DNA of 64,000 nt. It comes from Sipunculus nudus. Its lineage: Eukaryota; Annelida; Sipuncula; Golfingiida; Sipunculidae. Shown piece by piece: positions 250 through 37,579 of the stretch; position 1 is the stretch's first letter, and each line of letters starts with the position of its first letter. Made by a program: the position numbers and the translations under genes. Where the stretch lies: the NCBI GenBank assembly GCA_026874595.1, contig CM049321.1:46803797-46867796 (forward strand). The letters run 5' to 3'. Below the pieces are notes generated by a model. That model searched no databases and was not told the DNA's origin. It was given only the letters and a program-made list of their open reading frames with translations.

Positions 250-288
250 AGCCAAGTACATCCGTATTCTCCCATACAACTGAACAAG
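250..288 (+). CDS. microexon A1, PSTSVFSHTTEQ
   Basis: A 39-bp exon between acceptor ttctaatcag and donor GTAAAT, phase 1 on both sides. With the flanking phase base it encodes E-PSTSVFSHTTEQ, one of the more diverged repeat peptides. Its copy B counterpart is 27202-27240. Confidence 0.65.
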
Positions 289-3200
289 GTAAATTGTACC
301 TCCTACATCTTAGCAGAACTTATAATACATTTTGCCTTGAACAATCCTCGTCTGTTTGCGATTTATTTGACACCCTTGTATGATAAAATATTATAATTTA
401 CAATGAAGTGAATGAAATGCTCAAATCATATAAGAATGTCAAGTGAGCACAATTTTAAGCAGGTAGCAACAGGATACTTATTGCACTACATTTAATAATG
501 GCAAGAAAAAGACTTTGCCTTTCAACTGCAATTAATTTCCCATAGTTTTTGTTTAATATTACCCTTTCTAATAAATAACAATAACATCAATTTGCTTTTT
601 CTTTCCTGCAAATTTTTACAAGTAGTTTCTTTTACATGTATTAGCTACTTAACTCTTTTGATTCTTTTCCAACGACAACAGTATACTCCGGTACACTGCA
701 AACGCTTCAGTAAAAGTAAATGTTGTGAAGCGTGCTATATTTTTTCATTAGATTTTTGTTAGGTAAATTGAACCTTCAGCATTTTAGCACACGTTATAAA
801 ACACTTATCCTCAAACAATTCCTCCTCTGTATGCAAAAGATCGAATTTATTTAAATTATTTCATATTTCAAATGATACATCAATTTCAGGTTAGCAGAAC
901 TTTCAGGAGGTATTATTAGAACATGTTTTGAACATGATAATAATGACTAAAAATATGCAAATTTTTGTCCATAAAAAAATGTTATTTTGATGATAATAGC
1001 GAAAACCCAATAGTAAATGTAAACATTTGTGAAGAATGTTATAAAAAATTGTTATTATTGGATTGTTGTTCTGTATGAATATTTTATTTGTTTTATCATC
1101 TTAATTCTAATCAGAGCCAAGTACAACCGTATACTCCGATACAACTGAACAAGGTATAATTTACCTCCTGCATTTAATTAGAACTTATTATACAATTGGC
1201 CTCAAACAATCCTTATTTGTTCGTAATTTTATTTGATATCCTGGTATGATAATATATTACACTTTTCAATGAAATGAATGAATTGCCATAATCATATAAG
1301 AATCTCAAGTAAGCACAATTTTAAGCAGTTAGCAACAGAATAACTATTTCACTACATTTAATAACGGCAAGATAAAGACTATGCTTTTCAACTGGAGTTA
1401 ATCTGTCAGTTTTTTATCAGCAATTTATCATCTTTGTTTAATGTTGCCCTTTCCACTGGATAACAATTATATAAATTTGTTCTTTTTTCTACAGATTTTT
1501 TTAGTACAATTATAAATGATTACAAATGACCATGATGACTGCAGTTTATTTGCCGTAATGTTTCTTTACAGTCAAATTAATTGTTGTTTTCTAAGAACTT
1601 TTTTCATAATTTTAAAAGTTACAATTTCTGAAGAATATGAGAATTATATAAATTTGGCCGCTTGGCCTTTCTAAAAAATGATATAATTATTATTAAAACA
1701 ACAAATATAACGCCTAGTGCTGATATTAACGCTAACGCATTAGTAAATGTAAATATTGCGAAGCGTACTATATTTTTTATATTTACATTGTCGTTTTACA
1801 CGTATAACTTCCTTTTCTATTTCTTTCTAATCAGAGCAAAGGACAACCGTATACCCTGATACAACTGAACAAGGTAAATTGTACCTCCAGCATTTTATAA
1901 AACATTATAGAACACTTAGCCGCAAACAATATCTCATCTGTTTGCCTAGAATCGAAATATGTGTAACTTAATTTATTCCCTGGTACTCTTTTATAACAAA
2001 GTTTACAATTATGTTATTGGAATGTCCAGATGAAATATAAATTCAAGAAAGCAGAACTTTCAAGATGTATCACAATAATATGTTTTGGAATATTATAATA
2101 AAGACTAAAAATAGGCAGACAATTTTCCATAAGAAAATATAATTTTTATGATGTTAAGCCAATAGTAAATGGAAATTATTGCTGAGAATGTTAGAGAAAA
2201 TTGTTAAAACTGGATTGTTGTTTTATATGTATAACCTGTCTGTGTTTTTTAATTTTGATTCTAATCAGAGCCAAGTACAACTGTGTACTCCGATACAACT
2301 GAACAAGGTATATTGTACCTCCTGCATTTTGACAGAACTGAAAATACATTTGACCTTAAACAATCCATATTTGTTCGTAATGTTATTTTATATCATGGTA
2401 TGACAATATATTACATTTTGCAATGAAGAGAATAAAAAGCTTTAATCATAAAAGAATTTAAAGTAAGCACATTTTTGAGAAGGTAGCAACAGAATAACTT
2501 ATCCACTACATTTATTAATCGCAAGCTATAGACTATGTTTTCAACTTCAGTTAATTTGACACATTTTTTTACAGCATTTTATCATATTTGTTTAATGTGA
2601 TTGCCCGTTCTCATGAATAACAATTATATCAATTTGCTCTTTTCTCTGCATTTTTTTAGTCCCAGTATTTATTGTTCTTCGGATAATATACCTAGTGAAT
2701 GTATACACGCACTAGTAAATGTAATTTTTTGCGGAGCATATTTTATCAATGTGTTACAGGTAGGATGTTTTACATGTATTAGCCACTTCACTCTTTTGAT
2801 TCTTATCAGCGCCAACGACAACCGTATTCTCCGATACAACTGAACAAGGTATGTTAGCAAAAGGTATAAAACACTAACCCTCAACCAATGTCTCATCTGT
2901 TTCCACACAATAAACATATAATTCGTCATCAATTGTACCGCCTAGTGGTGATATTAACGCAAGGGCATCAGTAAATGTTAATATTGCGACGCGTTCTATA
3001 TTTTTTTAATCAGATTGTTGTTTATATGTTAAATTTCTTTTTCTATTTTAAATCTTATCAGAGCAAAGGACAACCGTATACGCCGATACAACTGATCAAG
3101 GTACATTGTACCTACAGCATTTTAACAGACGTTATAAAACACTTAGCCTCAAACAATTTCTCATCTGTTTGATTGGATTCAATTAATGTAACACATTTCG

Positions 3201-6200
3201 TACCCTGGAATTCTTTTATAACAGTGTTTGCAATTATGTGAATGAAATGTTTAAATGATCAATCAATTTCAAGTAAGCAGAACTTCCAGGAGGTATCACT
3301 ATTATATGTTTTGGAATATGATAAAAATGACTAAAAATAGGCAGACAATTGTCCATAAGAAAATATAATTTGTGTTATGTTAAGCCAATAGTAAATGTAA
3401 ATTATTCTTAAGCATGTTAGAAAAAATTGTTATAATTGGATTGTTGTTTTATATGTATAACCTGTCTGTGTGTTTTAATTTCATTATAATCTGAGCCAAG
3501 TACAACTGTGTACTCCGATTCAACTGAACAAGGTATATTGTACCTCTGCATTTTGACAGAACTTATGATACACTTGGCCTTTAAAAATCCTTATTTGTTC
3601 GTTATTTTATTTGATATCCTGGTATGATAATATATTACATTTTGCAAAGAAGTGAATATAATGCTCTAATCATATTAGCATTTCAGGTAAGCACAATCTT
3701 AAGCAGTTACCAACAGAATAACTATTTCACTACATTTAATAACGGCAAGAAAAAGACTATGCTTTTCAACTGCAGTTAATCTGCCATAGTTTTTTACAGC
3801 AATTAATCATCTTTGTTAAAATGTTGCCCTTCTACTGGATAACAATTATATCAATTTGTTCTTTTTTCTACAGATTTTTTTTTAGTACAAACAATTATTG
3901 CTCTTAAGCAAATATACCTAGGGGATGTGAAAAAGGAATAGTAAATTGGATTTTTGCAAAAAAAACTATAACAATGTGTTACAAGTAGGATGTTTAAATG
4001 TGTTACCCACTTCACTCTTTTCATTCTTATCAGAGCCAACGAAAACCGTATACTCCGATACAACTGAACAAGGTAAGCTGTTTAAGTATGGCGCATTGAA
4101 CAGAGAAAGCAGCAGACGAAGTTTAGTTTTACATTACAAATGACCATGATGACTGCAGTTTATTTGCCGTAATGTTTCTTTACAGTCAAATTAATTGATG
4201 TTTTCCAAGAACTTTTCTTCATAATTTTAAAAGTTACAATTTCTAAAGAATATGGGAATTATATAAATTTGCCAGTTATATGGACCTTTTTAGAGAAAGT
4301 TATATTTATTATTCATCAACAATTATAACGCCTAATGGTGATATTGACGCTAACGCATTAGTAAATGTAAATATTGCGAAGCGTGCTATATTTTTTTATA
4401 TTACATTGTCGTTTTACATGAATAACTTCATTTTCTATTTGATTCTAATCAGAGCAAAGGACAACCGTATACCCTGATACAACTGAACAAGGTAAATTGT
4501 ACCTCCAGCATTTTATTTAAACATTATAGAACCCTTAGCCGCAAACAATATCTCATCTGTTTGCTTAGAATCGAAATATATGTGACTTAATAAATTCCCT
4601 GGTACTCTTTTATAACAAAGTTTACAATTATGTTATTGAAGTGTCCAAAAAATATAAATTCAAGTAAGCAGAACTTTCAAGAGGTATCCCTATTATATGT
4701 TTTAGAATATGATAATAATGACTAAAAATAGGCAACATCATCCATAAGGAAAAATAATTTGTGTGATGTTATGCCAATTTGATGTAAATTATTGTTAAGC
4801 ATGTTAGAGAAAATTGTTATAATTGGATTGTTGTTTTATATGTATAACCTGTCTGTGTTTTTTTAATTTTGATTCTAATCAGAGCCAGGTACAACCGTGT
4901 ACTCCGATACAACTGAACACGGTATATTGTACCTCCTGCATTTTGGCAGAACATATAATACATTTGACCTTAAACAATACTCATTTGTTTGAAATTTTAT
5001 TTTATATCCTGGTATGACAATATATTACATTTTGCAATGAAGAGAATAAACAGCTCTAATCATAAAAGTAAGCCTAAAGTAAGCACATTTTTGAGAAGGT
5101 AGCAACAGAATAACTTATTCACTACATTAAATAATCGCAAGCTATAGACTATGTTTTTCAACTGCAGTTAATTTGTCATAATTTTTTACAGCAATTTATC
5201 ATCTTTGTTAAATGTTCGCCTTTCTCATGAATAACAATTATATCAATTTGCTCTTTTCTCTGCATTTTTTAGTCCCAGTATTTATTGTTCTTCAGAGAAT
5301 ATACCTAGTGAACGTATACACGCAATAGTAAATGTAAATTTTTGCGGAGCATATTAAATCAATGTGAAACAAGTAGGTTGTTTTACATGTATTAGCCACT
5401 TCACTCTTTTGATTCTTATCAGCGCCAACGACAACCGCATACTCTGATTCAACTGAACAAGGTAAGCTGTATCTTCGCATTTTAGCAGAAGGCATGAAAC
5501 ACATGGCCTCAAACAATTTCACATCCGTGTCCACATATTCAAAATACTCCCACTTATCTAATCCCCTGGTATGATTTGATTTTAAAATAATGGGGTTAAC
5601 ATTTTCAAATTATAAAAAAACTAGTTAAGTTAGACGAATTGAATAGAGGAAGCAGCAGAATAAGTTAAGTACTTCATAAGAAATGACAAGGATGACTGCA
5701 GTATATTTGCCGTGAAGTTTTCTTACAGACATATTCATTAATGTTTGACTTTCAATTTCGAATATTACAAAAAGAAGTTTTGTCAATCATCAATATGTAA
5801 AATTCGCCAAATGAACAGTAAACAATTCCTTACAGGATGACAGCCCAAATCTTATCCAATCTTATCACGCTCGTCATTAAAGGCACAATCCTCAGGGCAA
5901 CGCTCGCCATAATATTGGTACATCCAAAAGAGATGGACAGTCCAGGTTCTTTTTATCCGACTGAGATCATTACATGCAGAAAAATTAATGCGAGAAAACA
6001 GGATTGGTACAATCATTGAAAAATTACTATACTCTGGAGAGGCGTTCAACACTCGAGGCACAATATAAAAAACAATGAGTCTATATTGACGCACATGGAA
6101 TCATGGGTTCTTCAACTGAAAGTTTGGTACCCAGAAAGATCGCCCAAGGCAGTTTTGCCGCTGGTCATATTACTATAGCCAAACACTATCGAGCTCCGAG

Positions 6201-9034
6201 GATCCACCACAGGACACACGCCCAATCTAGGTTAATTGAGTCACACAAATACACTCGTCACGGCACCCCTCGACGTCCAACAAACCATTGGCTTACAGGG
6301 TTTTCACGGCAAATAGAAAAAAAAGTACAGACATATCATGCTTGTCTGCGGTATCGGTACCCGAAGATGTCACAGCAAAATGATATTCGGGACCCATGCG
6401 ATTAGCATATACTTGAAATTGATTTGGCCTGCAAGACTTCACCAAGGCTTTTTTTAAACCCACATCGACGGATTACCGGTTCGTTGGTTATTTCGACTCT
6501 ACTCTCATGTCCGTTAGAGGGATTCGCTTGGAAACTTTCAGACACTGACTGTCTGCGGAGAACTGTCACTTAGGGAACATATTCCATATTCTATTAGGGA
6601 ACATAACCAGATGATTGTTTTGATAATATATAATACATTTATATGGAGTATCGGGTTAGGAAATAAAGCGTGAGATCGTTGGTTAAAGAACACATCTCAT
6701 TTTTTTGTTAATTCCAAAGCAGGTTAAGAGCGTGTCTCTTTTTATGTTAATCTCGGAACAGTTTTAATTTCGTTGAAGGCGTCTCTGTTTGGCGGTCTCT
6801 CTAGTTCAGAGGGTTCGTTGCAGATTTCAAAGGAGGTGCCCCTGTGTAAGTTAGATTTTTTCAGGGTCTATCTCTAGAGGTATGTCCATATTTATATTCA
6901 AACTGTAATCGATGGTCGGCGTAATTGGAATTGGTGAATGGGCAGAAGACGAGCAAGACAATGCTCGACACAAGTGGCCGTCCAGCGTTCTGATTAGGTA
7001 CAGACAGGCGATATCAGCAGTCCGGGGACTGGTCTGATGGTGTCACGGTGAAGACAGCTGAGATGTGATGTCTACAAGCGTTAATAGTCGATGTCTGTGG
7101 AAGGAAACAAACGATTAATCTGTAAAGGTCATCAGAGGGAGTATGGCATATCTGCCGAAGGACTGGTAAATCTGTCGATGTATACCTGTTGTGAACACTT
7201 CTATGAACAGACCAGGGATTTTATTTAAACGCTTTATTGTAGAGGTACATGATATTGCAATGTGAAAGCTTATTCTGCTACCTATAACTGGATGATTCCA
7301 GGAGACATCAGCTGTAAAAGACTGTGATTCAACGCCGAGAAAGAGAAGCGATGGGTGAACTGTGTCAAACGTGTATACTTCAGCGAGTAATTATGGGTTA
7401 TTGGAGATCCATGTGTATAAAGACTGAATGTACTGCACACACAACGCGAGCCACTAAATTAGGCAAACAGTGTTACATCCCGGTATCACGTGTGCGTGAT
7501 GGTCATGATGGTCATTACTAGTAACAGAGTAATTGGAACTTTGCCGTATACTGTCATTAATGGACTCAGTGTATATTTATGTGTTATCCCCAATGTTCGT
7601 TTGTAAGAAGCGCCTCTACAGAGAATGTGAATAATTTCTTTATTTTACATAACAATTGTTTTGTTAAATCATGTCTTATTTTCTTTTTGGTATGTAGTTA
7701 TGATGAGTTCAACCTGTTGGTTTGACTTTTAAGAGAACCTGGACGTTCACATCTTGACCGGTGTGACACTGACCCTCTGGCCTCTCAGCTAATCAGTATT
7801 GGACTCTCCCCTAGACCCATGACAACCTTAGACAACTACACCAAGCGCGCTGACCCAGGAGTTTCTGACCCAGATTTCCTGATTCCATACTATATACCAG
7901 TCCTGACGTCATACCTACTGACCGACCTTGGCCCATCGTTCAAATACACTAAAATACAAACTCTGGACACGCCTCCAGAGGTAAATGTATGACAATCAAG
8001 CAGAATGGGCGCTGTCCCTGGAGGCTAGCGTATATGTGCCACCACAGGAACCGGTCAAGACAAATCTCACTGATTTACGACTGCACTGACTTCAACCCGA
8101 AGAATATATTTCGGTTCCTACTTCTAAGTTAACATCACAGTTCTCTGGTGACAACGACCAGATAGTGGCTATACATTTCAAATGCGCCTAATTTGCCATG
8201 AAGTTTCTTGACAGCCTTTCATCATCGTAAGCTTTTCTAAAATATAAACATAAAATGCTTGTTTTCACTGGATTTCTATTTTAATTCTACTCAGAAGCAA
8301 AGACAACCGGTTACTACGCTACAACTGAGCAAGGTAAGTTGAACATACACCATTGAAGCAGAAGGTATAAAAAATTGCCTCAGCAATTTCAGATACGTTT
8401 GCAAAGATTCAAATGTGTGTCATTTATTAAATACCCTTGAGCGGCATGATTACTATTAACTTCTACAAAGATGTGAAAACCACATGCCATTTTCAAGTAG
8501 GCAGAATTTTAAGTAGATAGCAACAGCATAATTAATGCACTACATTAATATCGACCAGATGAATGTTATGGTTTCAACTGCAGTTAATTAACCGTCAAGT
8601 GTCATTACTGCCTTTTACAATCATTATTATTCTTAAGTAGAAAAATGGTAAAAATTTGCTCGATTGCTCTACGATTTTTTATACAAGCAATTACTGTTCA
8701 TACTGTTCATCTAGTGGCGATGTTAACACGCAATAGTAAAAGTAAATTATTGCAAAGCTTGCTATATATAATAATTGGATTGTCCTTTTAGATGTATTAC
8801 TTGCTTATCATTTTTATTTGCCTGCTTGTTCTGCATTTTTATAAATACTATTTATTGCTCATATCGATTTTTTCTCAGAATCATCGACAATTGAAACAAT
8901 GACGATCTCTGAAGAAGGTGAAGTTTATCTTTATTTTACCTTAACTCATAAACAAACATGATAAGTTGTAGTGTTGATAACGCAAATACAATATGTAAAT
9001 CATAGATTAATATTCTTGTAAATTATAATTATTA

Positions 9035-9069
<35 letters not shown>

Positions 9070-11595
9070 ATACATTTGCGTAGCGGATTCCAGATATAAA
9101 CAAAGGAAAATTTTGAAGAATATTAATGTTAATGCCATTCAATATTTTTTTTACTGTGAATAGTCGATCTTTTTTTCTTTACGATCAAATCAAACTCAGA
9201 ATATTTTCTATTCGAGTTCATTTACACAATAGAAATTTAAACATCTTGTGATACTACATTGTAGATATTCCATGTGACCAAAGCGCTGATGGTAAGCTGA
9301 TGATCTTTATCTCTTTGGAAACACATATAGTCTTCAGCTTGAGTAAATAGGATAATCTGATAATAGGACGTAGCCAAGTGAAGGCATGAGAGGTCCTCGG
9401 TTCGTTTTTAATGACAAAATTGGCAAACCTTGATTGGACTTTGCACATGAAATATTAGGAATAACACATCAATCTTGTCGTATGATATATGTTTATACTC
9501 CTTCAACAGACAGCGATTGATATATCCTTAATAAAACATGTGAATACGTAAATCATTATCACTAGCTGTTTAGAACAAGCAGTTTTGACATCTGATAATA
9601 TTTTTCTCATTCTTTGTTTATTGTAAATCAGTGTATATTTACCACATACACACTATGTAGTTCATTTTGTTATTACTCATGAAAATGTTTCAATCAAAGT
9701 TGATAAATATGGAAAAAAAAGAAAGATGGCGGATGAGCTCCTTCAACAACTAAGAATGTCACGAATATGAGTGTTTTGCCATAACGTCCAAAAACAAAGG
9801 GTAATTGAGAAGGATATGAGAAGCTCAAATAATGATTTTTTAATATTCCCAGAAACACTTCTTGTCACTGAATAGGCACTATTGATATCCACAAGCATTA
9901 AGGTTTTTGCACCATTAAGTAATTTACGTTGTGCCATCAGGGTATGCATGTGTACTTACATTATATAAAAATGTTGTTTCGTCGGTGCGGATGAAGTGTT
10001 ATTAAGTATTTTTTTTTTTTATTTTAAATGTAAAATCCAATGATTGACATAATTGTAATTCATTACACGTATATATTAGTATCATCATATGTCACATTTA
10101 GATTATGTTCACATTTTTGTGCAGAAGGGAAGCAACCATTGCCTTATTTAAGACATGGATGTACAGCTAACGAAGAAGGTAAACATAATTTGAAAGTTTC
10201 AAATACTCACATAATGTAATACCTCGGAGAGAAACTTAATTGTAAACAAATCAGATTACCTCACATTTTATATTGCCAGTCCTTTTCATATCAGTAAATA
10301 TTAGAATTCTAGGAAGTACATACATTCTCAGAAAAAAAGATGGACTGAGGTCTTAAATAATTATAATAATTATAATTTAAATGTAATAATTATAATTATA
10401 ATAATTATTATGATTATAGTCATTATATCTTTATATTAAGAGTGAATAGTGGCTATTTTTAACAGGTTCTTTGTGAACATAACCCAGATTTCCATATATT
10501 CAGGCTCTAGAATGGACCAAGTTTACCTCATTAGGGCACCCCTCTTGAAACAAGCTCAACAATAATATCGTTCATGCTCCTATCCGAGCGGTAACGATAT
10601 AAAACAAATTTGATTGTATCCATTAGACTGATTTTAATTATAAAATATAATGAATATATGTCATATATTTCATATACATATATTTCTGTATTTCAGAAAT
10701 AAAAGAAATTGTGAACCTTGAAACATTTCTGGATATGTTCCTTGGTATCAGGGCCAGAGGGTACACTGTACTAAAGGCAGCCATTATGTGTAAAATACAA
10801 AACAGGTGGAAACAAATACTTGGGGTCGTCTTCAGAAATTGTGTGATTAATGACGCAAAACAACCTAGAACACGACATGCAGAAGAAAATCTAATGCTAC
10901 AAATGAAGCACCGAGTTGATAAAGAAAATATCAAACAGGAACGGAGAAAAACTAAGAAAGGATGTGAATTCTGGACTGTTATAAACAATCAACCTTGTAT
11001 TTTCTGCAGCGGCGCGCACCCGAGAGGTATTCCTCATATGCCTAATCTAAAGAATTATATCTTTGATCAATTTGGAATATCAACATTTAAGCTTGCATGG
11101 AGTAATTTTTGCCCAAAATTAATACTAAATCACCAAGACTGTACTCCTCGTTTTAACAAGTACATGCCTAATAAAAGCACACAGGACATTGATGCTGCTG
11201 TAAGTTCATATAACAATTTGATGGGGAGAGGGTTTAAGATGCAGGTTTGTGAATGGAGAGAATGGTTAAATCGGGCAAAACGGGAAAATATCGGAAGTAA
11301 AATTAATCAATATAAAAGGGACCGTGTACGTCAGACGGAGTGTGAAATGCAGGTGATAAGTAACAAAATTAAAACCGGTTTCTGGAAAAAAGACGATTGT
11401 TTGTATGAGACTGATGAGGAAACCGAAAGCGACAAAACGCTCATCGGCACCAAAGCCTTGCGCCCACCACAGCAACCTTTGCAATCAGGCTCCGGGGCAC
11501 AAATGCATCGTCCCCAAGCAACGTACAAAGAAAGAAGAAACACACCCGCCCCACACGCCTTAGTTTTATGTCAATCATCCGCCTCACTTTACTAA
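250..11595 (+). CDS. microexon-stalk deaminase-like gene, copy A (partial gene span)
   Basis: This is the span of a multi-exon plus-strand gene whose 5' part is left of the window. Up to twelve 39-bp exons (250-5461) encode variants of EPTTTVYSDTTEQ. They are followed by 39-bp exons at 8295 and 8879, a 54-bp exon at 10125 and a terminal exon at 10697-11595. Every junction is phase 1: an exon ends with the first base of a codon and the next begins with the last two, so all internal exons are multiples of three and interchangeable. Acceptors are typically ttctaatcag or ttcttatcag, and donors GTAAAT, GTATAT or GTAAGC. The predicted product is a Thr/Pro-rich, probably O-glycosylatable stalk fused to a C-terminal deaminase-like domain. 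Exons and phase are seen directly; stalk function and export are inference, since no signal peptide is in the window. Which exons are used in the mRNA cannot be told from sequence. Confidence 0.6.
671..715 (+). pseudogene. microexon remnant A2 (no acceptor AG, no donor)
   Basis: The exon core is recognisable (PTTTVYSG), but the bases AGAGC that span the acceptor and exon start in copy B (27621-27628) are missing. The exon also runs into sequence normally found further downstream, so the donor is lost too. It looks like a deletion remnant that cannot be spliced as a normal unit. Confidence 0.6.
1115..1153 (+). CDS. microexon A3, PSTTVYSDTTEQ
   Basis: A 39-bp exon, acceptor ttctaatcag, donor GTATAA, phase 1-1. 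It matches the repeat consensus and corresponds to 28072-28110 in copy B. Confidence 0.7.
1835..1873 (+). CDS. microexon A4, QRTTVYPDTTEQ (Q type)
   Basis: A 39-bp exon, acceptor tttctaatcag, donor GTAAAT, phase 1-1. It belongs to the Q type, in which CCA-ACG is replaced by CAA-AGG. Copy B counterpart 28792-28830. Confidence 0.7.
2269..2307 (+). CDS. microexon A5, PSTTVYSDTTEQ
   Basis: A 39-bp exon, acceptor ttctaatcag, donor GTATAT, phase 1-1. First exon of the best preserved three-exon higher-order repeat. Copy B counterpart 29183-29221. Confidence 0.7.
2810..2848 (+). CDS. microexon A6, PTTTVFSDTTEQ
   Basis: A 39-bp exon, acceptor ttcttatcag, donor GTATGT, phase 1-1. It starts with CG rather than AG, so the junction residue is Ala instead of Glu. 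Copy B counterpart 29724-29762. Confidence 0.7.
3062..3100 (+). CDS. microexon A7, QRTTVYADTTDQ (Q type)
   Basis: A 39-bp exon, acceptor tcttatcag, donor GTACAT, phase 1-1. Copy B counterpart 29976-30014. Confidence 0.65.
3494..3532 (+). pseudogene. microexon A8 with destroyed acceptor
   Basis: The 39-bp core encodes PSTTVYSDSTEQ-like sequence with donor GTATAT, but the acceptor reads taatctg instead of taatcag. The only nearby AG is inside the exon and would break the frame. Copy B (30408-30446) has the same change, so the lesion predates the duplication. Confidence 0.65.
4034..4072 (+). CDS. microexon A9, PTKTVYSDTTEQ
   Basis: A 39-bp exon, acceptor ttcttatcag, donor GTAAGC, phase 1-1. 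Thr to Lys at the third residue. Copy B counterpart 30948-30986. Confidence 0.7.
4453..4491 (+). CDS. microexon A10, QRTTVYPDTTEQ (Q type)
   Basis: A 39-bp exon, acceptor ttctaatcag, donor GTAAAT, phase 1-1. Copy B counterpart 31367-31405. Confidence 0.7.
4883..4921 (+). CDS. microexon A11, PGTTVYSDTTEH
   Basis: A 39-bp exon, acceptor ttctaatcag, donor GTATAT, phase 1-1. The final codon is CAC (His) rather than CAA. Copy B counterpart 31797-31835. Confidence 0.7.
5423..5461 (+). CDS. microexon A12, PTTTAYSDSTEQ
   Basis: A 39-bp exon, acceptor ttcttatcag, donor GTAAGC, phase 1-1, first bases CG (Ala junction). It is the last exon of the regular array before a 2.8-kb intron. Copy B counterpart 32337-32375. 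Confidence 0.7.
5745..8185. other. 2.4-kb unclassified insertion in the intron between microexons
   Basis: Array-type intron sequence ending near 5740 (...tttgccgtgaagttttcttacag) resumes near 8185 (tttgccatgaagtttcttgacag). Between these points the base composition is richer in GC and unlike the array. Open stretches occur on both strands (for example 5837-6019, 6103-6405 and 7324-7521 on plus, 5852-6094 on minus). None matches a family I recognise, and I found no clear terminal repeats or target-site duplication. An old inserted element or a captured exon cluster are both possible. Copy B carries the same block at about 32659-35099. Confidence 0.45.
7724..7990 (+). other. orphan open stretch of about 88 codons
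   Basis: An open stretch on the plus strand ending at a TGA at 7988-7990, with clearly non-repetitive, protein-like composition (it includes IGLSPRPMTTLDNYTKRADP and DFLIPYYIPVLTSY). It lacks a convincing start or acceptor. Copy B keeps it open at about 34638-34904. It could be the end of an element-encoded protein or a lost exon; I do not recognise it. Confidence 0.3.
8295..8333 (+). CDS. microexon A13, AKTTGYYATTEQ
   Basis: A 39-bp exon, acceptor ttctactcag, donor GTAAGT, phase 1-1, a diverged member of the same repeat (TT core and TTEQ end kept). It sits downstream of the 2.4-kb insertion. Copy B counterpart 35209-35247. Confidence 0.65.
8879..8917 (+). CDS. microexon A14, SSTIETMTISEE
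   Basis: A 39-bp exon after a good pyrimidine tract (gattttttctcag) with donor GTGAAG, phase 1-1. It keeps length and phase, but the peptide has drifted. Copy B counterpart 35793-35831. Confidence 0.55.
9021..10124. other. AT-rich intron with (ATT)n microsatellite
   Basis: About 1.1 kb between exons 8879-8917 and 10125-10178. An (ATT)n tract occupies about 9024-9067. The rest is AT-rich non-coding sequence; no other feature seen. Confidence 0.6.
10125..10178 (+). CDS. 54-bp linker exon, copy A
   Basis: Acceptor acatttttgtgcag, donor GTAAAC, phase 1-1. Encodes E-GKQPLPYLRHGCTANEE with one Cys. It joins the repeat-encoded part to the terminal exon without frame change. Copy B counterpart 37038-37091. 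Confidence 0.6.
10697..11595 (+). CDS. terminal exon: cytidine deaminase-like domain, copy A
   Basis: A long exon after acceptor tgtatttcag, entered in phase 1 (G+AA gives Glu, then IKEIVNLETFLDMF) and open to TAA at 11593-11595, about 299 codons. A predicted helical start is followed by HAE at 10876-10884 (RHAEENLMLQM), a Lys/Arg-rich loop, then FWTVINNQPCIFC with P-C-x-x-C at 10993-11007; 36 residues separate E from P. In the cytidine deaminase superfamily H and the two Cys bind zinc and E is the proton shuttle, and a strand usually precedes the PCxxC, as here. More Cys follow (SNFCPKL, HQDCTP, QVCEWREW). The last third is charged, then Pro/Gln-rich with no recognised domain. Subfamily (AID/APOBEC-like, secreted animal deaminase, or toxin-type deaminase) cannot be settled by eye, and zinc coordination by chance motifs cannot be fully excluded. 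Confidence 0.6.
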
Positions 11596-17045: not shown

Positions 17046-18669
17046 TACATACATCCATCAAAACACAATTACACACGCAGTCCTTCATAAACACAGGGTA
17101 GTAACAAAAGCGGATACGGGGGAGGGTCCAGGGGTACCGCCCCCTTTTTTCAGCCGCCGTAATACTGGCGCCGCTCACCGGATTAATTACCTGTACCACT
17201 TCTGAATGTCTTCCCCAACTTTTATACAGTCATGCTGAGAAACAGGCCTTCTTTGGAAACAGATCCAAATGAAAATGAGATAACTAATATGTTTAATTCA
17301 AAACCCTTGCACAAAGTGTGTTTTGTAAAAATGTACATTATACAATAAATATATTGTAACTTAGCTGGACTAAGACTATTTTTATCGTTACTTGGACATT
17401 GATATACAATATGAAGTAAAGATAAATTGGTAATGTTATTTTCCTATTGACTATTAATTGCCAGTGTATCCTGGAAATTCAGCGGAGCCTTGCCATACCT
17501 TTCCAATGACGCATTGGACCCCTGTGTAACACACAACCCCGTACCAGATTTACAATTGATTAAAAAGACATCAATAAAACAGTAAACTAAGGCCAGCTCA
17601 AGAAGAGCAAGACTGCACAATCCCAGTTGACACGGAGGCCATTTTAACTATTTCGATACATGATAGAAAGTTTAGGTAGGTTTCCACGAGGGTTCTACTG
17701 AGTCCTATTACAATGGTCGTTGGACAATGTGTATTGTTCCTGCTGAGCTCCTTGCTTTAACGCGAGAATTGTTTCTTAGGTTCTTTTGATCTTTTGTAGA
17801 TATATTTTTAAGTTCAGCCTTTTGTCGTCTGCGTATAATAATCTAGTTGCTGGAATCAGAACCAGAGCTCCACGCGATCTTCTATTGTCCATTGCTGCCA
17901 ATGCTCGCGTGTCTTTCATATCCTTATATTACCGGCACAAGTCAAAAGTTTACTGGTAACCGCGCATACAAAATAAAATCACGTAGCAAAACCATTCGCA
18001 TGCAGTGGAGTCTATAAAAACTGATTTATTAATAAGGTGGATTAACTCATAATTCACAACATATATTCATCATATTTCTGGTATTTTGTTGAGCAAGCTT
18101 TTAGAATTGAATAAACTGATGTATTTATGACGTCTTTGGAGCTTATAATCTAGTGTATACTCGGATCAAATGTTCCCTATATCCTCTAGTTTTATATTGA
18201 TATTTAACTCCAACGGAAACAAAAGGATATTTACCCCTTAGACAGAGCTTCTGTACATTGTAGTATAAAAAACTAATACTAGGTCTTCACGTTTTTGCAT
18301 TGAAAGTTGTATTTATATGGAAAGTTTGAATTAATATTAATATAACAACCATCATGCTGGCATCCCTTAATTATTTTGATGTTCTTAGGCACTAAGTGCA
18401 GACGGATGACAATAATAAAAAGGGGGCCAACTGAAGAGTGCTTAAAATGAAATATAACATTGTGTTATTTACCTTAGAGTTGTTACTAGATGGATAGATT
18501 ATCGCCATCCTGGTAGTAAACCCAGTCCAGTCTTGATATGGTAATTTGCCAATATAACTTACATATCTTCGTTTAAAATAATAACCGTGAGAAAACAGCT
18601 AAGTTTCAAAAGACCGTAAGTAGGTAACTTCCGCAGATGAAGTTAAATATGCTATTATTTATGGCCTTA
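17046..18669. other. 3' flank of duplication unit, no gene seen
   Basis: AT-rich intergenic sequence without coding signal. The duplication unit ends at 18669; to the right the sequence becomes microexon-array intron. Confidence 0.5.
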
Positions 18670-18700
18670 AACACAATTCATAAGTTCTTTGTTGTTAAGG
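18655..18700. other. tandem duplication junction (A end / B start)
   Basis: Identity to the end of copy B stops after tatttatggcctta (18669 and 45234). The following bases (aacacaattcataagttctttg) match the array's own intron repeat (compare 20410-20450 and 23285-23320). The joint therefore lies within or beside array intron sequence that happens to resemble the 3' flank, consistent with a short-homology joint. Confidence 0.7.
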
Positions 18701-19546
18701 AAAACAAAACCTAACGCATTCCTTTGTTAAAATAGAAAAAAAAGGACGCTGCTCTCCATTTCCCCCATGTTCTTCGAAAAATGAGGAAATATATTTTTAT
18801 AAGCTGTGTTACAGTGACCTTCTTGTAAATAATTATTTTTAAATAAAATCACGTTTGCTGTGTCAGTTTTTAAAGCGCTTACTGTGTCAATTGTACCGGA
18901 TTTGCTTAGATATCTGAAAAGGCACACTCTTCTTACAAACAGTTTTGTTTTATATCAATCGATTATTTCCTGTGCAAGTAAAGTACAAGTAAGTTCAAAA
19001 TATGCCGAATAAAATGTATTTTCTTTCGGGTTCCCTTGCATTGTTTATGCTGATGGCCCAAGGGTGGCGGGTTTCCGAGACAGCCGAACGTAGCTATATG
19101 CAATCATTGACAAAGGAATGACGCCAAGACAAAAAAAAATATTATTCAGTTGATCTAATCTTGATTATTTTGTGCAAATAAACTATAAGCTATATTTATC
19201 CCAATATCCAACAGGTAAAAACTCAAGTAAAACTGTTACAAGTAAAATCATAAAAATCGTAGTAAAATGAATTTCTTTTGGGCTCCTTATGCTGTTTATG
19301 CTGATTGCTCATGATTGGCGCCTTTACATTGACATTTTGTTGCACATGCCCTTTTGCTAAAGTTTCATGATTCCTAAATTTCAAAAGCCCTCTTCTTGCA
19401 GCCGATTTTTTTTTTCAATCTTTGTCGGTAAACACACAAGTCAATAAACATCAATCAGATTTATCTAGCTTTATTTATGGATAGCTAAAATCAGTCAAGT
19501 GCTGTTTGTTTACTGGACATATTTTCAAGATAATGATTCTCTTCAG

Positions 19547-19585
19547 GTCCTCCTTCCTTCATACCAGGCCCGAAGACTAATCAAG
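19547..19585 (+). CDS. microexon B-L1, GPPSFIPGPKTNQ
   Basis: A 39-bp exon, acceptor attctcttcag, donor GTAAGT, phase 1-1. First two bases GT give a Gly junction residue. Confidence 0.65.
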
Positions 19586-20192
19586 GTAAGTAGTATTTCG
19601 CATATAAAAAAAATCATAAACGAAAAAGGAGTCCACAATTTCTCAATTGTTAAGCAAGCAAAACGAAGTGCATTCCTTTAATAAAATAAAATGGGCAGTT
19701 ATTTTTTTAACTCTAAACTTCGATCAGTTGTTGTGCCAAGATTTAAAGCGCTTGATTTGTTTAAGTGGATCGGATTCGCTGCAAGTGTACGTCTAGATAA
19801 TGTATATTTTGATACAATATTAAAACCAGTTATCTTGACACATGCAGGCACGTATTACTGGAAGGGACTATCACATTTTTGTTGGAACAATGTTATAAAC
19901 TTGTATTTTTTTACCAATAATTTTAATAACAGTTAACAATCGTATCGGCTTTGAAATCCGAATAGGAACATTTCATCCCGAATATATGGTAAAAATCTAT
20001 ATACGAAAAAAATCATTTTGCTAAAGTTTCTTGATCCCTCAGTGTGTAATGCTTTTCTTCTTGTAGTCAGGTGTTTTTCAATCTTTTTTAATATATAAAT
20101 CAATAAACTCTACATCAACCAGATTCATGGAGCTTAATTTATGATAAGGTAAAAATATGTCATTTGCTCTTTGTTTACTGAATCATCTTTAG

Positions 20193-20231
20193 GTCCTCCT
20201 TTATCCATACCAGCACCAAAGACTGATCAAG
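20193..20231 (+). CDS. microexon B-L2, GPPLSIPAPKTDQ
   Basis: A 39-bp exon, acceptor aatcatctttag, phase 1-1. Donor GTTATT is a weak match to consensus, so inclusion is doubtful. Confidence 0.5.
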
Positions 20232-21596
20232 GTTATTCTTCTCTCGCATGTTGAAACAAACTGCCAAAACGAAAAGGAGTCTATAATTTATCAGTTTAAT
20301 TCTTTATTCCCAATTATTGCAAAATACCAAATAATCTGATGATTTATTAATCCTTTATTAAAAGAACAATACAACCAGAATATTAATCCCTTAAAATGCT
20401 ACAAATTATATATGGCTTGAGCACAATGCAACAGTTCTTTGTTTTACAATAAGCAAAATGTAGGGCATTCCTTTGTTAAAAATAAAAAAGACACTAGAAG
20501 TTCTCCCATGTTCCTCGAAATATAACGCCCTCTTATTTTAGTCTATATTTCAGTGCGGTTCATGCATTATTTTTTAATTCTAAGCTCCGATCGATTCTTG
20601 TGCCAAGTTTAAAGGCTTGAATGAATTTTTATTTCTAAAGTCTTCGCGGATGGAAATGTGGAAAACACGGTTAACTGTGTATTGGTATCTTGATTAAATG
20701 TCTCGTGCGAAATCGGTGAAAGGACAAGAAATATCAATGTTTGACTTAGACAGACGGCGATAAAGACCCAACAAGTACCGGCCAGATAAATTATATCATC
20801 ATACTTGTTTATCTGAGCTGCTGTGTTCACTGATACTGGAAGGCAAAGTAACAATTTTAGTTGGAGCAGTGTTGTAAAATATGTAATGATATGCTTTGTA
20901 AATTATTCAATTACTTTTTGCACTCTTTGTACTGTTTATGCGGATGGTCTATGATTTGCGTCTTTCCGAGACCGCCGAACAGTATGTTGTTTCATAAATA
21001 AGACTTTCTTCAATGTCTTTGGACCCTAGTGTTTTTGACAAGGCAATAGTAATGCCAGAAAAAAAAATTCATGACTTTATTGAATAATATCATCCGTTGA
21101 AATGCATGTTTATTCTTCTGTCTCCGCTGATGGAAATGTGGCAATCATTGTAGACTGTTTTATGATGTTCTGGACTAATTGTCTTATGCCAATCAGTGCT
21201 AGGACAAAACACTATGTCTCACTTAGGCGGACGGCGGAATAGACTCTTCAAGTACAGGGGAAGATAAAATATATCATCATATTGTTTCAAATCAATTATT
21301 CGAACTCATATGACCACATATTACTGGAAGGCAATGTATCAAATCTTGGTTGGAACGATGTTATAAATTTTATTGATTTTTACTGATTCTTTTATCAACA
21401 GTATGGAATGGGGTTAGCTGTGTTATCCGAAAAACGTACATTGGAATGTTATCTTTGTTATAACAAAAGCTATATACGAATATACAATTTTGATCAGTTT
21501 AACGAATCCTCAATAGTACATGCTTTTCTATCTTGAAAAAAAAATAATGTACTCCTTGTTTATCATGTACTCCTTTTAAAGATGACGATTTTTCAG

Positions 21597-21632
21597 GTCT
21601 TCCATCCAAACCGGCATGGAAAACTTATACAG
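21597..21632 (+). CDS. microexon B-L3, GLPSKPAWKTYT
   Basis: A 36-bp exon, acceptor gatttttcag, donor GTAAGT, phase 1-1. One codon shorter than the 39-bp class. Confidence 0.65.
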
Positions 21633-22123
21633 GTAAGTCTTCTCTCACATGTATACATTTAAATCATAAACAAAAAGAGAGTCCATATTTTCTCAAATGT
21701 GCCCTTTACTCAAAGTCAACGCACATTACAAAATTATCTGATGATGAACTATTGCTATGTCAATAGAACAATACTATACTTATATCAATCCCTTCAAATA
21801 TTGGGTAAGCAGCAGTGGTTTGTTCTTCAGCAAGGAAAAATTAAGCACAATAATTTATTTAATTGATAAATAAAAATACTTTCGAAATTCAACACGCTCT
21901 CTGAAATACGATAAGCTTTATACGAAGATACTATTTTGATAAGTTTCACGAAAATCAACACTTAATGCTTTTCTCTCTTGTACTCCGATTTTATTTTTAT
22001 ATTTATTTTTCTGGTAAATATATAATTCAACAAACTCAGACTTATGGAGCTTTTTCTAGGTTAGGTTAAAATGTTATATACTGTTTTTTATTGGTAATTT
22101 TTTAAGATAAAAATTTTCTTCAG

Positions 22124-22141
22124 GTCTACCATCGCTACCAG
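22124..22141 (+). CDS. 18-bp microexon B-L4, GLPSLP
   Basis: Only 18 bp between aaattttcttcag and GTAAGT, phase 1-1. Three near-identical exons (22124, 23612, 26038) with preserved splice sites argue it is real despite its size. Confidence 0.6.
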
Positions 22142-23075
22142 GTAAGTCTTTTCTCGCATGTATAAACAAATATCATAATCGAAAAAGAGGCCCTAATTTA
22201 TTAATTCCCTTTTCTCACAGTAAACGCAAATTACAAAATCATCTGATGGCGAACTATTCCTATGTCAATAGAATAATACTATACTTAAATCATCCCTTAA
22301 AATAGTTATAATTATTAATGACTTAAAAAACAATTCAGCACTGCTTTGTTCTTCAGCAAGAAAAACGAAGCCAATTAATTTATTTAATTGATAAAGAAAT
22401 CTACTTTCGAAATTCTACACGCTCTTCAAAATACCAAAAGCTGTATACGAATATACTATTTTGATAAGGTTAACGAATGGTCAATAGTAACTGACCACAT
22501 GTGTAATATTTTATCCTATAGGCCGCATGATTTTTTTGCGATTAATATTTCAGGAATTTTTTTAAAAGTAAAATCTTTACAAGTTTACATTGTAAAATCT
22601 TTGAAAAATGTTTATTAACGTATCGGGCTCTTTCTTCTGTTTCTGCTGATGGCTCGTGATTGGCGTTTTTCCCAGACAGCCGAGCGGGATGTTCTTTCGT
22701 AAAAAGACATTCCATGCCCGAATGCTTTTGACAAAGCAATATCGATGTCACAAAAACATCTCATACTTGATTAAAATAAATGATCTTAACTCCTGCGGGC
22801 ACTGGTACTGGAAGGCAACATAAACATTTTTGGAGTAGTGTTATATAATTTTATTTTTTAATTATTATTTTTACAACAGTGGGCAATCGGATTAGCTGTG
22901 TAATCCTAACAAGATACATTTTAATGCCAACTTTGTTAAAACAAAAGCTATATACGAACATACCATGTTAATAAGGTTAACGAATCTTCAATAGTAAATG
23001 CTTTTCCATCTGAAAAAAAATATATCATGTACTCCTGTTTACTGGGCATGTTTCAAAGATGACGATTTTCTTCAG

Positions 23076-23111
23076 GTCTTCCATCCAAACCAGCACCGAA
23101 GCCTGATCAAG
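23076..23111 (+). CDS. microexon B-L5, GLPSKPAPKPDQ
   Basis: A 36-bp exon, acceptor gattttcttcag, donor GTAAGT, phase 1-1. Confidence 0.65.
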
Positions 23112-23611
23112 GTAAGTCTTCTCTCGCATGTATAAACTTAAATCATCAACAAAAAGAGGCCATAGTTTCTCAAATGTGCCCTTTACTCACAGTTAACGCA
23201 CATTACAAACTGATATGATCATGAAATATTGCTATGTCAATAGAACAATACTATACTAATATCAATCCCTTAAAATATTGGTAATTATTTATGACTTTAA
23301 CTGCAGTGCAGCAGTACTTTGTTGTTCAGCAAGAAAAACGAAGCGCATTAATTGTAAAAAGGAAACTACTTTCGAAATTCAACACGTTCTTCGAAATACC
23401 AAAAGCTATATACGAAGATACATTTTGACAGGTTTCACGAAACCTTAACAGTAAATGCTTTTTAACTTGTAGTCAGATTTTATCTATTTTTTGCTAAATG
23501 TATAATTCAACAATCTCTATTAGACTGATGGAGCTTTTTTATAGTAAGGTAAAAATATATCCTGTACGTTTTGTTTACTGGTCATGTTTTAAAGATAACA
23601 CTTTTCTTCAG

Positions 23612-23629
23612 GTCTTCCATCGCTACCAG
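23612..23629 (+). CDS. 18-bp microexon B-L6, GLPSLP
   Basis: An 18-bp exon, acceptor cttttcttcag, donor GTAAGT, phase 1-1. Same peptide as 22124 with a synonymous change (CTT for CTA). Confidence 0.6.
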
Positions 23630-26037
23630 GTAAGTCATCTCTCGCAAGTTAAACAAATGTCATTAACGAAAATAAGAGTCAAACATTTCTCAATTGTTTC
23701 CTTTACTCACAGTAAAAGCAATTTAAACAATCATCTTATGATAAATTATATCTATATCAATAGAACAATATTATACAAATATACTTCAATCAAAATAATA
23801 CCAGTCATTTATGAATAAAATAAATCTTGCAGGACTTCGCTGTTAGACAAGGAAAACGAAGCGCATTCCTTTATTAAATTCAAGAGGAAAACTACTCCAA
23901 CATTCAGCACAATTGACGGATCCGCAAATTTTTTATTAAAGTGCACTTCATGCGAATTATTTTATTTTGCATTATAAATTTGATCGATTGCTGTACCAAG
24001 TTTAAAGTGGTTAACTGTTCAACTGTAGCACATTCGCATTCTAAAAAAAATAATAAACACTCTTTTCATTGTGCACTCTTTTGATTCGTATGCATGGTTT
24101 AATTACCGTGCAGGGTCGTAGTTATATTAACCACCAACTAAAGAATGAAGCCAACACAAATTATAATTTGGTTGATATGATCTTGATCTCAAATTTTCTT
24201 TGCAATATGTACTGACCACATAAGCTATATTTAATCCTGGGAGCCGTGTTCGCATGTTTTTCTTCGCGATTAATCATTTTAAAAATTTCTTCACAGGTAG
24301 AATCTTTAAACGTTTGCCTTGTAAAATTGTTGTAAAATGTTTATTTACATATTGGGCTCCTTGTGCTCCTAATACAGATGGCCCGTAATTGACGTGTTTC
24401 CGAGACGGTCCCACAGTATGTGGATTCATATAAAAAGCCATGTCGATGGATCTGAATGCTTTTAACAAGGCAATAGTGATGTCACAAAAACATCTAATAG
24501 ACCTGTCATTCATGACTCTATTTAATTATGTCATCAGTTGAAAGGCATGCTATTTCTTCAGTCTCCGCTGATTGAAATGTGGCAAACATTGTGAACTGTT
24601 TTGTTATGTTCAGGACTAATTGTCTCATGCTTATCAGTGCAAAAAACACTGTATATCATTAAGGTAGACGGCGGAAAACACCCTGAAAGTTTAGGGGACG
24701 ATAATTTATATCATCATATTGTTTAAAATCAATTATCCAAACTTATGTGGGCACGTATAATTGGATAGCACTATAACAAATTTTGTTGGAGCAGTTTTAT
24801 AAAATTTTGCTTTTTTTGCCGATATTTGTAGGAACATTGAGCAATCGGATTAGCCGTGCAATCCAAACAAAATACATTTAATGCTGTATATTTTAACAAG
24901 AGCTATATACAATCACGCCAATTTGATAATTTTTTCATCTGTAGCAGATTCGCATGGCCTTTATTTAAATAAACTCATTTTTCATTCTGTACTCTTTTGA
25001 TTAAACATGCATGGTTTATTTATCGTGCAGGCACGTGGTTAAATTAACCACCAACATAAGGATGGAGCCAGCACAAATTATTATTTGTTTTATATATTTT
25101 TTATTTCGTGTTCTTTGTGCAATATGAACTGACCACATAAGATATATTCAATCCTAGATTCGGTGTCGGCATGTTAGTTTCGCAATCAGTCATTCAACAA
25201 TTTTCTACACAGGTAAAAGCTTTACAAAATTGCTTTATAAAAGTGTTGTAAATTGATAATTTACTTTATGGGCTTCTTGTGCTCTTTATACTGAAGGCCC
25301 ATGATTGGCGACTTTCCGAGACAGCCGAACAGCATGTTGTTTCATATAAACAAAAGTCCATTTCTATGGGTCCGAGGGCCCTTCACAAGGCAATAGTGAT
25401 GTCACAGAAACATCTCATCGACCTGGTATTCATGACTCTATTGAATGATGCCTTCAACTGAAATGCATTTTTTTTCATAAGTCCCCGCTGATTGATATGT
25501 GGCTTACATTCTAAATTTTATAGATATTCTCTGGATGAATTGTCTCAAGCGAATCAGTACAAAGACAAAAAATAGTGTATTCCACTTAGGTAGAAGGCAG
25601 AAGAGACCCTGCAACCTCAGGGGAAGATATTTTATATCATCATATTGTTCAAAATTAATTATCCGAAAGTATGTGGGCACGTATTACTGGAAGGCAATAT
25701 AACAATTTATTGTAGCAGTGTTATAAGATTTCATTTTTTTACCGATACTAAGAACAGTGCGCAATCGGATTAGCTGTGTAATCCAAACGAGGTATATCCT
25801 GATGCTGTATATTTTAATAAACGTATATAGGAACACGCCATTTGTATAAGTTTTACGAATCCTCAAAAGTAAATGCTTTTTACCTTGTAGTCAGGTTTTG
25901 TTTAATCTTTCTTTAAACATATAATTCAGCAAACGTTATCTCATTCAGAGTTATGGAGTTTTTTTTATGGTTAGGTAAAAATAAGTAATGTACTTTTTGT
26001 TTACTGGTTATGTTTTAAAGATAACCATTTTCTTCAG

Positions 26038-26055
26038 GTCTTCCATCGCTACCAG
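26038..26055 (+). CDS. 18-bp microexon B-L7, GLPSLP
   Basis: An 18-bp exon, acceptor attttcttcag, donor GTATGT. Last exon of this class; the intron immediately after it is already of the Thr-rich array type, so the two arrays meet here. Confidence 0.6.
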
Positions 26056-26495
26056 GTATGTCTTCAATCCTCATCTGTTTGCAATTTATTTGATACCCTT
26101 GTATGATTGTATAATGCATTTTAGAATGAAGTGAATGAAATACTCAAATCTTATAGGAATTTCAAGTCAGCCTAATTTTAAGCAGGTAGCAACAGAATTA
26201 TTATTGCGCTACAATTAATAACTGCAAGATAACGAATATGCTTTTCAACTGCTGTCTGTTTCCGACATTTTTAACAGCATTTTATCGTCACCGTTTCTAA
26301 TGAATAACAATTATATCAATTTGCTTTTTTTCCTGTAATTTTTTAGTCCCAGGGGTATTGTTCTTATGTGAATATATCGAGAGAATGAGTTAACGCAATA
26401 ATAAATGCAAATTATTCCGAAGCAAATTATATCAATGAATTACAAGTAGGTTGTTTTACATGTATTACCCACTTCACTCTTTTCATTCTTATCAC

Positions 26496-26534
26496 AGCCA
26501 GCGACAACCGTATACTCCAATACAACTGAACAAG
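26496..26534 (+). pseudogene. microexon B-T1 with destroyed acceptor (PATTVYSNTTEQ)
   Basis: A 39-bp core with donor GTAGGC, but the acceptor reads atcac instead of atcag. The next AG lies two bases inside the exon and would break frame. Confidence 0.6.
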
Positions 26535-26763
26535 GTAGGCTGTCGCTTCGGCATTTTAGCAGAAGGTATAAAACACTTACCCTCAAACAATGTATATTCT
26601 GTCTTCAACCATGCAAAATATTATTCCTAAACAATTATACCGCCTAGTGGTGATATTAACGCAAACGAACCAGTAAATGTAAATATTGCGAAGCGTGCAT
26701 TTTTTTATATTTACATTGTCGTTTTATATGTATAACTTCTGTTTCTATTTTGATTATAATCAG

Positions 26764-26802
26764 AGCAAAGAACAACCGTATACGGCGATACAACTGAACA
26801 AA
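26764..26802 (+). CDS. microexon B-T2, QRTTVYGDTTEQ (Q type)
   Basis: A 39-bp exon, acceptor gattataatcag, phase 1-1. The last exon base is A instead of G, weakening the donor (A|GTAAAT) and changing the junction residue to Lys if joined to an AG-type exon. Confidence 0.55.
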
Positions 26803-27201
26803 GTAAATTCTACCTCCAGTATTTAAGCAGGCGTTGTAAAACAATTAGCCTCAAACAATTTCTCATCTGTTTGCATAGGATTGAATTGATGTTACTTATT
26901 TGATACCCTATGAATCTTTTCTAACAAAGTTTACAATTATGTGAATGAAATGTTCAAATAATATAACAATTTCAAGTCAGCAGAACTTTCAGGAGGTATC
27001 ACTAGAATATGTTTTGGAATATGATAATAATGACTAACACTAGGCAAATTATTGTCCATAAGAAAATCTTATTCTGATGATGAAAGCGGAAACGCAATAG
27101 TTAATGAAAATAAATGTGAAGCATGTAATAAAAATTTGTAACAATTAGATTGATGTCTTATATCTATAATTTGTTTGTTTTCCCATCTTAATTCTAATCA
27201 G

Positions 27202-27240
27202 AGCCAAGTACATCCGTATTCTCCCATACAACTGAACAAG
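27202..27240 (+). CDS. microexon B-T3, PSTSVFSHTTEQ
   Basis: Counterpart of 250-288, identical sequence and splice sites. Confidence 0.65.
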
Positions 27241-27623
27241 GTAAATTGTACCTCCTACATCTTAGCAGAACTTATAATACATTTTGCCTTGAACAATCCT
27301 CGTCTGTTTGCGATTTATTTGACACCCTTGTATGATAAAATATTATAATTTACAATGAAGTGAATGAAATGCTCAAATCATATAAGAATGTCAAGTGAGC
27401 ACAATTTTAAGCAGGTAGCAACAGGATACTTATTGCACTACATTTAATAATGGCAAGAAAAAGACTTTGCCTTTCAACTGCAATTAATTTCCCATAGTTT
27501 TTGTTTAATATTACCCTTTCTAATAAATAACAATAACATCAATTTGCTTTTTCTTTCCTGCAAATTTTTACAAGTAGTTTCTTTTACATGTATTAGCTAC
27601 TTAACTCTTTTGATTCTTTTCAG

Positions 27624-27668
27624 AGCCAACGACAACAGTATACTCCGGTACACTGCAAACGCTTCAGT
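27624..27668 (+). pseudogene. microexon remnant B-T4 (acceptor kept, donor lost)
   Basis: Acceptor gattcttttcag and the start of the exon (PTTTVYSG) are intact here, unlike copy A. The 3' part and donor are missing, so the exon runs into downstream intron-type sequence. Confidence 0.6.
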
Positions 27669-28071
27669 AAAAGTAAATGTTGTGAAGCGTGCTATAGTTT
27701 TTCATTAGATTTTTGTTAGGTAAATTGAACCTTCAGCATTTTAGCACACGTTATAAAACACTTATCCTCAAACAATTCCTCCTCTGTATGCAAAAGATCG
27801 AATTTATTTAAATTATTTCATATTTCAAATGATACATCAATTTCAGGTTAGCAGAACTTTCAGGAGGTATTATTAGAACATGTTTTGAACATGATAATAA
27901 TGACTAAAAATATGCAAATTTTTGTCCATAAAAAAATGTTATTTTGATGATAATAGGGAAAACCCAATAGTAAATGTAAACATTTGTGAAGAATGTTATA
28001 AAAAATGGTTATTATTGGATTGTTGTTCTGTATGAATATTTTATTTGTTTTATCATCTTAATTCTAATCAG

Positions 28072-28110
28072 AGCCAAGTACAACCGTATACTCCGATACA
28101 ACTGAACAAG
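28072..28110 (+). CDS. microexon B-T5, PSTTVYSDTTEQ
   Basis: Counterpart of 1115-1153; 39 bp, phase 1-1. Confidence 0.65.
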
Positions 28111-28791: not shown

Positions 28792-28830
28792 AGCAAAGGA
28801 CAACCGTATACCCTGATACAACTGAACAAG
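28792..28830 (+). CDS. microexon B-T6, QRTTVYPDTTEQ
   Basis: Counterpart of 1835-1873; 39 bp, phase 1-1. Confidence 0.65.
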
Positions 28831-29182
28831 GTAAATTGTACCTCCAGCATTTTATAAAACATTATAGAACACTTAGCCGCAAACAATATCTCATCTGTTT
28901 GCCTAGAATCGAAATATGTGTAACTTAATTTATTCCCTGGTACTCTTTTATAACAAAGTTTACAATTATGTTATTGGAATGTCCAGATGAAATATAAATT
29001 CAAGAAAGCAGAACTTTCAAGATGTATCACAGACAATTTTCCATAAGAAAATATAATTTTTATGATGTTAAGCCAATAGTAAATGGAAATTATTGCTCAG
29101 AATGTTAGAGAAAATTGTTAAAACTGGATTGTTGTTTTATATGTATAACCTGTCTGTGTTTTTTAATTTTGATTCTAATCAG

Positions 29183-35948: not shown

Positions 35949-35983
<35 letters not shown>

Positions 35984-37572: not shown

Positions 37573-37579
<7 letters not shown>

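Follow-up and report, generated by a model that had tools for sequence, protein, structure and literature searches.

Secreted deaminases resembling AID/APOBEC are already known, and in the accounts of them available to us in part their targets and site of action are an open question. In the sections of these reports that we consulted, 26 of 38 SNAD1 proteins carry a signal peptide and six have an N-terminus anchored in the membrane (PMC11004436), sea urchin SpAIDL is 193-194 amino acids long and brachiopod LaAIDL1 has two deaminase domains (PMC5956068), and the mollusc Aplysia has three APOBEC3-like loci (PMC9334734). Here we describe a gene in a 64,000-nucleotide stretch of the Sipunculus nudus genome (GCA_026874595.1, contig CM049321.1, 46,803,797 to 46,867,796, forward strand; hereafter the window, with negative positions lying upstream of it). 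On balance we favor a model, to which we give modestly better than even credence, whereby an exon with a predicted AID/APOBEC fold is likely spliced behind a Thr/Pro-rich microexon stalk and the product, probably secreted, acts on foreign single-stranded nucleic acid; splicing, secretion of the window member, catalysis, substrate and a role in immunity are what we infer in this model. The motif, the phase-1 entry, the microexon array with its conservation and the paralog family are read directly from the sequence; the fold and the paralogs' start exons and N-terminal domains are predictions.

The gene and its relatives share with the SNAD proteins HAE...PCxxC and, by prediction, the AID/APOBEC fold; the hydrophobic start exons of the C3 and C4 relatives may correspond to the signal peptide of SNAD, and there are weak Pfam matches to SNAD4 and SNAD1 among the relatives. 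SNAD1, as far as the consulted text describes it, differs in having, besides the deaminase, either a signal peptide or a membrane anchor, whereas here a microexon stalk or, in sister genes, DNase II-, thioredoxin- and trypsin-like exons precede the deaminase. Similarly, SpAIDL and LaAIDL1 have the signature H[AVS]E-x(24-36)-PCxxC and are multicopy in an invertebrate, but no stalk or partner domain is described for them in the parts consulted (PMC5956068). The Aplysia loci are likewise deaminase predictions of the AID/APOBEC type from a mollusc genome, but they were named by domain annotation and the excerpt mentions no stalk or fusion (PMC9334734). The initial annotation knew of no described protein with this architecture, and this holds for the literature searched, in which we found no deaminase on a microexon stalk, with Krishnan et al. 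2018, the main reference, lying outside its reach. The same literature gave no domain architectures of secreted APOBECs in Lophotrochozoa, and a search for a DNase II-thioredoxin-APOBEC fusion found none, returning one review of mitochondrial DNA.

The deaminase part of the gene is a single exon:

10697..11595, plus strand: terminal exon of 299 amino acids, predicted AID/APOBEC-like deaminase domain plus tail (open reading frame, motif, paralogs, fold)

This exon follows an acceptor AG at 10695-10696, is entered in phase 1 and has HAE at residues 61-63 (10876-10884) and PCIFC at residues 100-104 (10993-11007). The 36 residues between them lie at the upper end of the spacing range of 24-36 given for the AID/APOBEC signature in the consulted part of PMC5956068. 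This signature occurs stop-free once in the six frames of the 64-kb window, is absent from each of ten 10-kb stretches upstream of it, and turned up a single time in 300 order-1 Markov copies of the window. Coordinates, phases and chance counts thus bear out what had been noticed from the letters, namely HAE and PCIFC 36 residues apart in an exon sharing its phase with the upstream microexons. Modeling of residues 1-243 returned a deaminase fold with AID/APOBEC structures nearest (all 50 Foldseek matches listed), while a single-sequence AlphaFold2 model of the exon (pLDDT 35.9) was unusable. We therefore predict that the domain adopts the cytidine-deaminase fold of AID/APOBEC, HAE and PCxxC supplying the zinc-site residues, and the deaminase proposed earlier is supported as a predicted fold. 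HAE and PC..C are present in eight of eight open-frame paralogs, at identities down to 19%; seven of these have PC-x3-C as opposed to PC-x2-C in the window exon.

Upstream of this exon lies the putative stalk:

250..5461, plus strand: Thr-rich array of 39-nt phase-1 microexons (splice scans, conservation)
250, 1115, 1835, 2269, 2810, 3062, plus strand: Thr-class starts, first part
3494 (acceptor TG), 4034, 4453, 4883, 5423, plus strand: Thr-class starts, second part
667, plus strand: decayed Thr-class copy
-188, -456, then Pro/Thr class to -14.9 kb, plus strand: array beyond the window, upstream
8295..8333, plus strand: 39-nt phase-1 microexon EAKTTGYYATTEQ, array class (splice scans, conservation)
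8879..8917, plus strand: 39-nt phase-1 microexon ESSTIETMTISEE, weak donor GTGAAG (sequence, joined frame)
9265..9291, plus strand: 27-nt phase-1 microexon candidate DIPCDQSAD (splice scans)
10125..10178, plus strand: 54-nt phase-1 microexon EGKQPLPYLRHGCTANEE, directly 5' of the deaminase exon (splice scans)

The upstream array comprises 14 recognisable Thr-class 39-nt microexons (EPSTTVYSDTTEQ type) plus the decayed copy, and a second class of eight Pro/Thr microexons (GPPSTISTPETDQ type); together the two classes, all kept in phase-1 register, span -14.9 kb to 8333. The interval 8879..11595 first assigned to the gene contains merely the tail of this array, which extends far upstream. Joined to the exon at 10697, the microexons at 8295, 8879, 9265 and 10125 give one open frame through to the end, although the splice scan did not list the donor GTGAAG of the second of these. 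Ser, Thr and Pro make up 44% of the residues over 13 microexons. Among 13 Thr-class copies, conservation is 0.915 in the exon and 0.89 in the last 15 intron bases, against 0.57 and 0.65 in the measured intron stretches further out. Acceptors of the Thr class are lost at -457 and 3493; in the Pro/Thr class the donor at -8506 is lost and those at -8883 and -6760 are poor.

Schistosome micro-exon genes, in the excerpt consulted, likewise encode secreted products from short exons between long introns; the likeness is confined to gene layout, as the 39-nt repeats here lead to a deaminase exon (PMC10526429). The present gene, as modeled, has the array of 39-nt phase-1 exons yet about 900 nt of coding in one exon. 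We suggest that the stalk would keep the enzyme at a distance from a surface or lodge it in mucus, which is the general role of O-glycosylated Thr/Pro stalks. Skipping of the symmetric 39-nt microexons could vary stalk length while keeping the frame. If true, such a stalk would give the enzyme a second means of display, independent of the first.

The other means is suggested by the paralogs in the same genome. We found nine paralogous loci, with 8-9 kb of upstream sequence fetched for the seven other than L023 and L026; L026 is split between frames and its second piece, L030, was left out of the alignment. The family forms local clusters at 10.55-10.58 Mb (C2), 39.96-40.02 Mb (C4) and 95.59 Mb (C3). 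At the pyrimidine cut, seven of eight loci have a phase-1 acceptor (L023 failed), most of them with other-phase candidates as well, and in six of seven flanks the deaminase exon is preceded by a 36-51-nt phase-1 microexon candidate that encodes Cys (24 nt in C3, the seventh). By eye, EGKQPLPYLRHGCTANEE resembles the C4 microexons GATNVWTHGCTIEKR and GATNVWTHDCTAEER, with a best tblastn E of 4.0. In C2a, C2b and C2c, DNase II-like exons are followed by thioredoxin-like CRFC/CRYC exons, a Cys-bearing phase-1 microexon and the deaminase, with a linker between thioredoxin-like exons and microexon seen in C2a and C2b. C4b and C4c have a signal-peptide-like plus trypsin-like exon, two exons taken as thioredoxin-like, two 45-nt phase-1 microexons and the deaminase. 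In C3 (L022), a predicted start exon MECPAVLLAVTLIT with donor AG|GTAAGT lies 1.6 kb 5' of the deaminase exon with the 24-nt candidate DGQRCNDQ between them, and the stretch fetched for C16b contains the thioredoxin-like exons together with a single exon in common with the DNase II-like part of C2a.

The DNase II family PF03265 matches C2a, C2b and a 63-residue piece of C2c at E 0.011, 0.035 and 0.18, all below cut-off; the C2 thioredoxin-like exons match Glrx-like (0.034 and 0.048), Thioredoxin (0.11) and a PDI in PDB (0.013), with Radical_SAM (0.0089) outranking the thioredoxin-type matches in C2b; and the trypsin-like exon of C4b matches PF00089 at E 0.0096, 16.2 of 20.6 bits. The two exons that follow it in C4b and C4c we take to be thioredoxin-like by CRYC and the ending, Pfam lending no support (DUF7114 at 0.27 was the only match in C4b). 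A CRFC/CRYC exon is present in six paralog flanks, C2a, C2b and C4b each have a phase-1 acceptor immediately in front of CRxC, and in C2b and C4b phase 2 closes the thioredoxin-like part; these shared phases would fit one ancestral unit. Against such a unit, tblastn at E<=1 gave no match between the C4 and C2 CRxC exons, and in C4b, where the microexons start in phase 1, the extra exon needed was not found. For some exons of C2a and C2b the splice scan found no splice sites.

Judging from order, strand, phase and conservation, the paralog exons are likely spliced together, and this type of terminal exon is likely used as a cassette that follows DNase II-like plus thioredoxin-like domains, degenerate trypsin-like plus thioredoxin-like domains, or little beyond a signal peptide. 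APOBEC enzymes mutate viral DNA, and such an arrangement would make the deaminase a component of a modular, secreted kit for defence. DNase II works in endolysosomes. Because the relatives have signal-peptide-like starts and DNase II-like is the commonest partner, we propose that the deaminase would act extracellularly or in the endolysosome, on cytosines in foreign single-stranded nucleic acid; disulfides, which the invariant cysteines other than the zinc pair would allow, would agree with such a site. A deaminase likely sharing a polypeptide with DNase II-like and thioredoxin-like domains thus points to an extracellular or endolysosomal target, which can be tested. The probable extracellular location proposed for the window gene at the outset draws its support only from these relatives, in the invariant cysteines and in the hydrophobic start exons of C3 and C4 (judged without a signal-peptide program), while the start of the window gene itself was not found. 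It is tempting to speculate, though we hold this tentatively and at somewhat less than even credence, that the family is what modular polymorphic toxins would look like in an animal. A phase-1 secreted deaminase exon would sit behind exchangeable secreted modules, either a DNase II-like or a degenerate trypsin-like domain, each with a thioredoxin-like one, or a Thr/Pro microexon stalk of variable splicing, and foreign nucleic acid could then be cut, reduced and mutated extracellularly by one and the same protein.

Several observations weigh against our model of a secreted, stalked nucleic-acid deaminase. For the domain, Foldseek TM-scores by query length are just 0.38-0.49 at 8-14% identity; the SNAD4 profile gave no match over the whole genome at E<=1; the 19 genome matches of PF00383 include neither the 10697 exon nor its paralogs; and no relatives were found in a protein collection, viral contigs or PDB sequences, nor a credible one in NCBIfam. 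The profile search did return a general deaminase family, PF00383, as the only Pfam match of the exon, yet at 17.7 of 25 bits it is under the cut-off. This general match could indicate a deaminase of free nucleosides or nucleotides (CDA/dCMP type) instead of nucleic acid, a reading we consider very improbable, as AID/APOBEC fills the list of fold matches and family members show weak matches to SNAD4 (9.4e-4) and APOBEC_N (1.8e-3), each in two of ten.

For the stalk, third codon positions of the microexons are conserved at 0.905, compared with 0.929 and 0.911 at the other two, so that protein constraint is indistinguishable from young array copies, and recent array duplication may account for part of the microexon conservation. 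In the 100 kb that precede the window gene, searches for DNase II-, thioredoxin- and trypsin-like exons gave no match at E<=0.05 or at E<=1, and a further one gave only chance-level hits. Start-exon candidates lie at -22.7, -21.3, -20.0 and -13.0 kb and at 8645, none of them linked to the window gene; that at -13.0 kb (MHESVLEKQTYLFVGIVLKMCTCNGTEE), within the array, could be neither adopted nor excluded. The candidate at 8645 (MVKICSIALRFFIQAITVHTVHLVAMLTRNSK, phase 1, weak donor AA|GTAAAT) sits between array and deaminase. The long Thr/Pro-rich stalk first proposed is supported as sequence, in its composition and exon conservation, and its join to the deaminase is putative. The array might instead be a separate mucin-like gene and the deaminase a short secreted protein with its own start exon, as in C3, where the signal-peptide-like exon lies 1.6 kb before the deaminase exon with at most a 24-nt candidate between; the scans linked no start exon to the array. 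We regard two genes as unlikely, since 8645 was the sole candidate in the first-exon scan of 1-10690, with low scores for donor (6 of 8) and hydropathy, and since every exon between 8295 and 10178 is in phase 1 and reads open into the deaminase exon, that at 8295 being of the array class.

The locus has also been duplicated:

18650..45234, plus strand: copy B, tandem duplicate of the gene's 3' part
about -8.3 kb to 18.65 kb, plus strand: copy A
37621..38214, plus strand: copy B deaminase exon, broken

The duplication unit is about 26.9 kb. Copies A and B diverge by 0-0.6% per 500 bp from -8.0 to about 10 kb and by 0.6-6% beyond, and the sharp break at about 10.1 kb could stem from gene conversion, from duplication in two steps or from an assembly join between haplotypes. 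The copy B deaminase exon has a stop right behind HAE and has lost about 270 bp just after PCIFC, so of the two copies A alone could make the enzyme. This broken copy, together with the dead splice sites in some stalk microexons, means that the locus may be decaying, which also counts against our model. We think it quite improbable that the gene is dying or encodes a folded, catalytically idle deaminase-like binding module: besides copy B and the microexons lacking splice sites, the frame-split paralog L026/L030 and the C4 trypsin-like domain, with LTALDC at the position of the His motif where active trypsin-like proteases have LTAAHC, would fit such a fate, but HAE and PC..C persist in every open-frame paralog and copy A has no stop in its 299 codons.

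Upstream of the array, L011 7251-8667 and L010 33-771 (window -22.7 to -19.2 kb) contain exons, starting MRNQTLLMLAILSA and MREFLATMLTILPKESINAQT, of Cys-rich proteins, one or two in number and probably secreted, whose signal-peptide candidates are those at -22.7 and -20.0 kb. These look stanniocalcin-like, but a Pfam search gave no match and no link to the stalk was found, and they were left out of the gene model. Between these exons and the array, transposase-like open frames, which we take to be hAT-like, occupy about 1260-1870 of L010 on the minus strand. An Rfam scan of the window at the gathering threshold gave no match. Eleven of the PF00383 matches have equal scores, five of them at L004-L008 and the other six elsewhere on contigs C67-C90; the five of these contigs with a listed length measure 1.1-2.2 Mb, and the contigs are possibly bacterial ones in the assembly. 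Finally, open frames that resemble C2H2 zinc fingers and contain many 84-bp units lie at 56844-59528 of the window on the minus strand.
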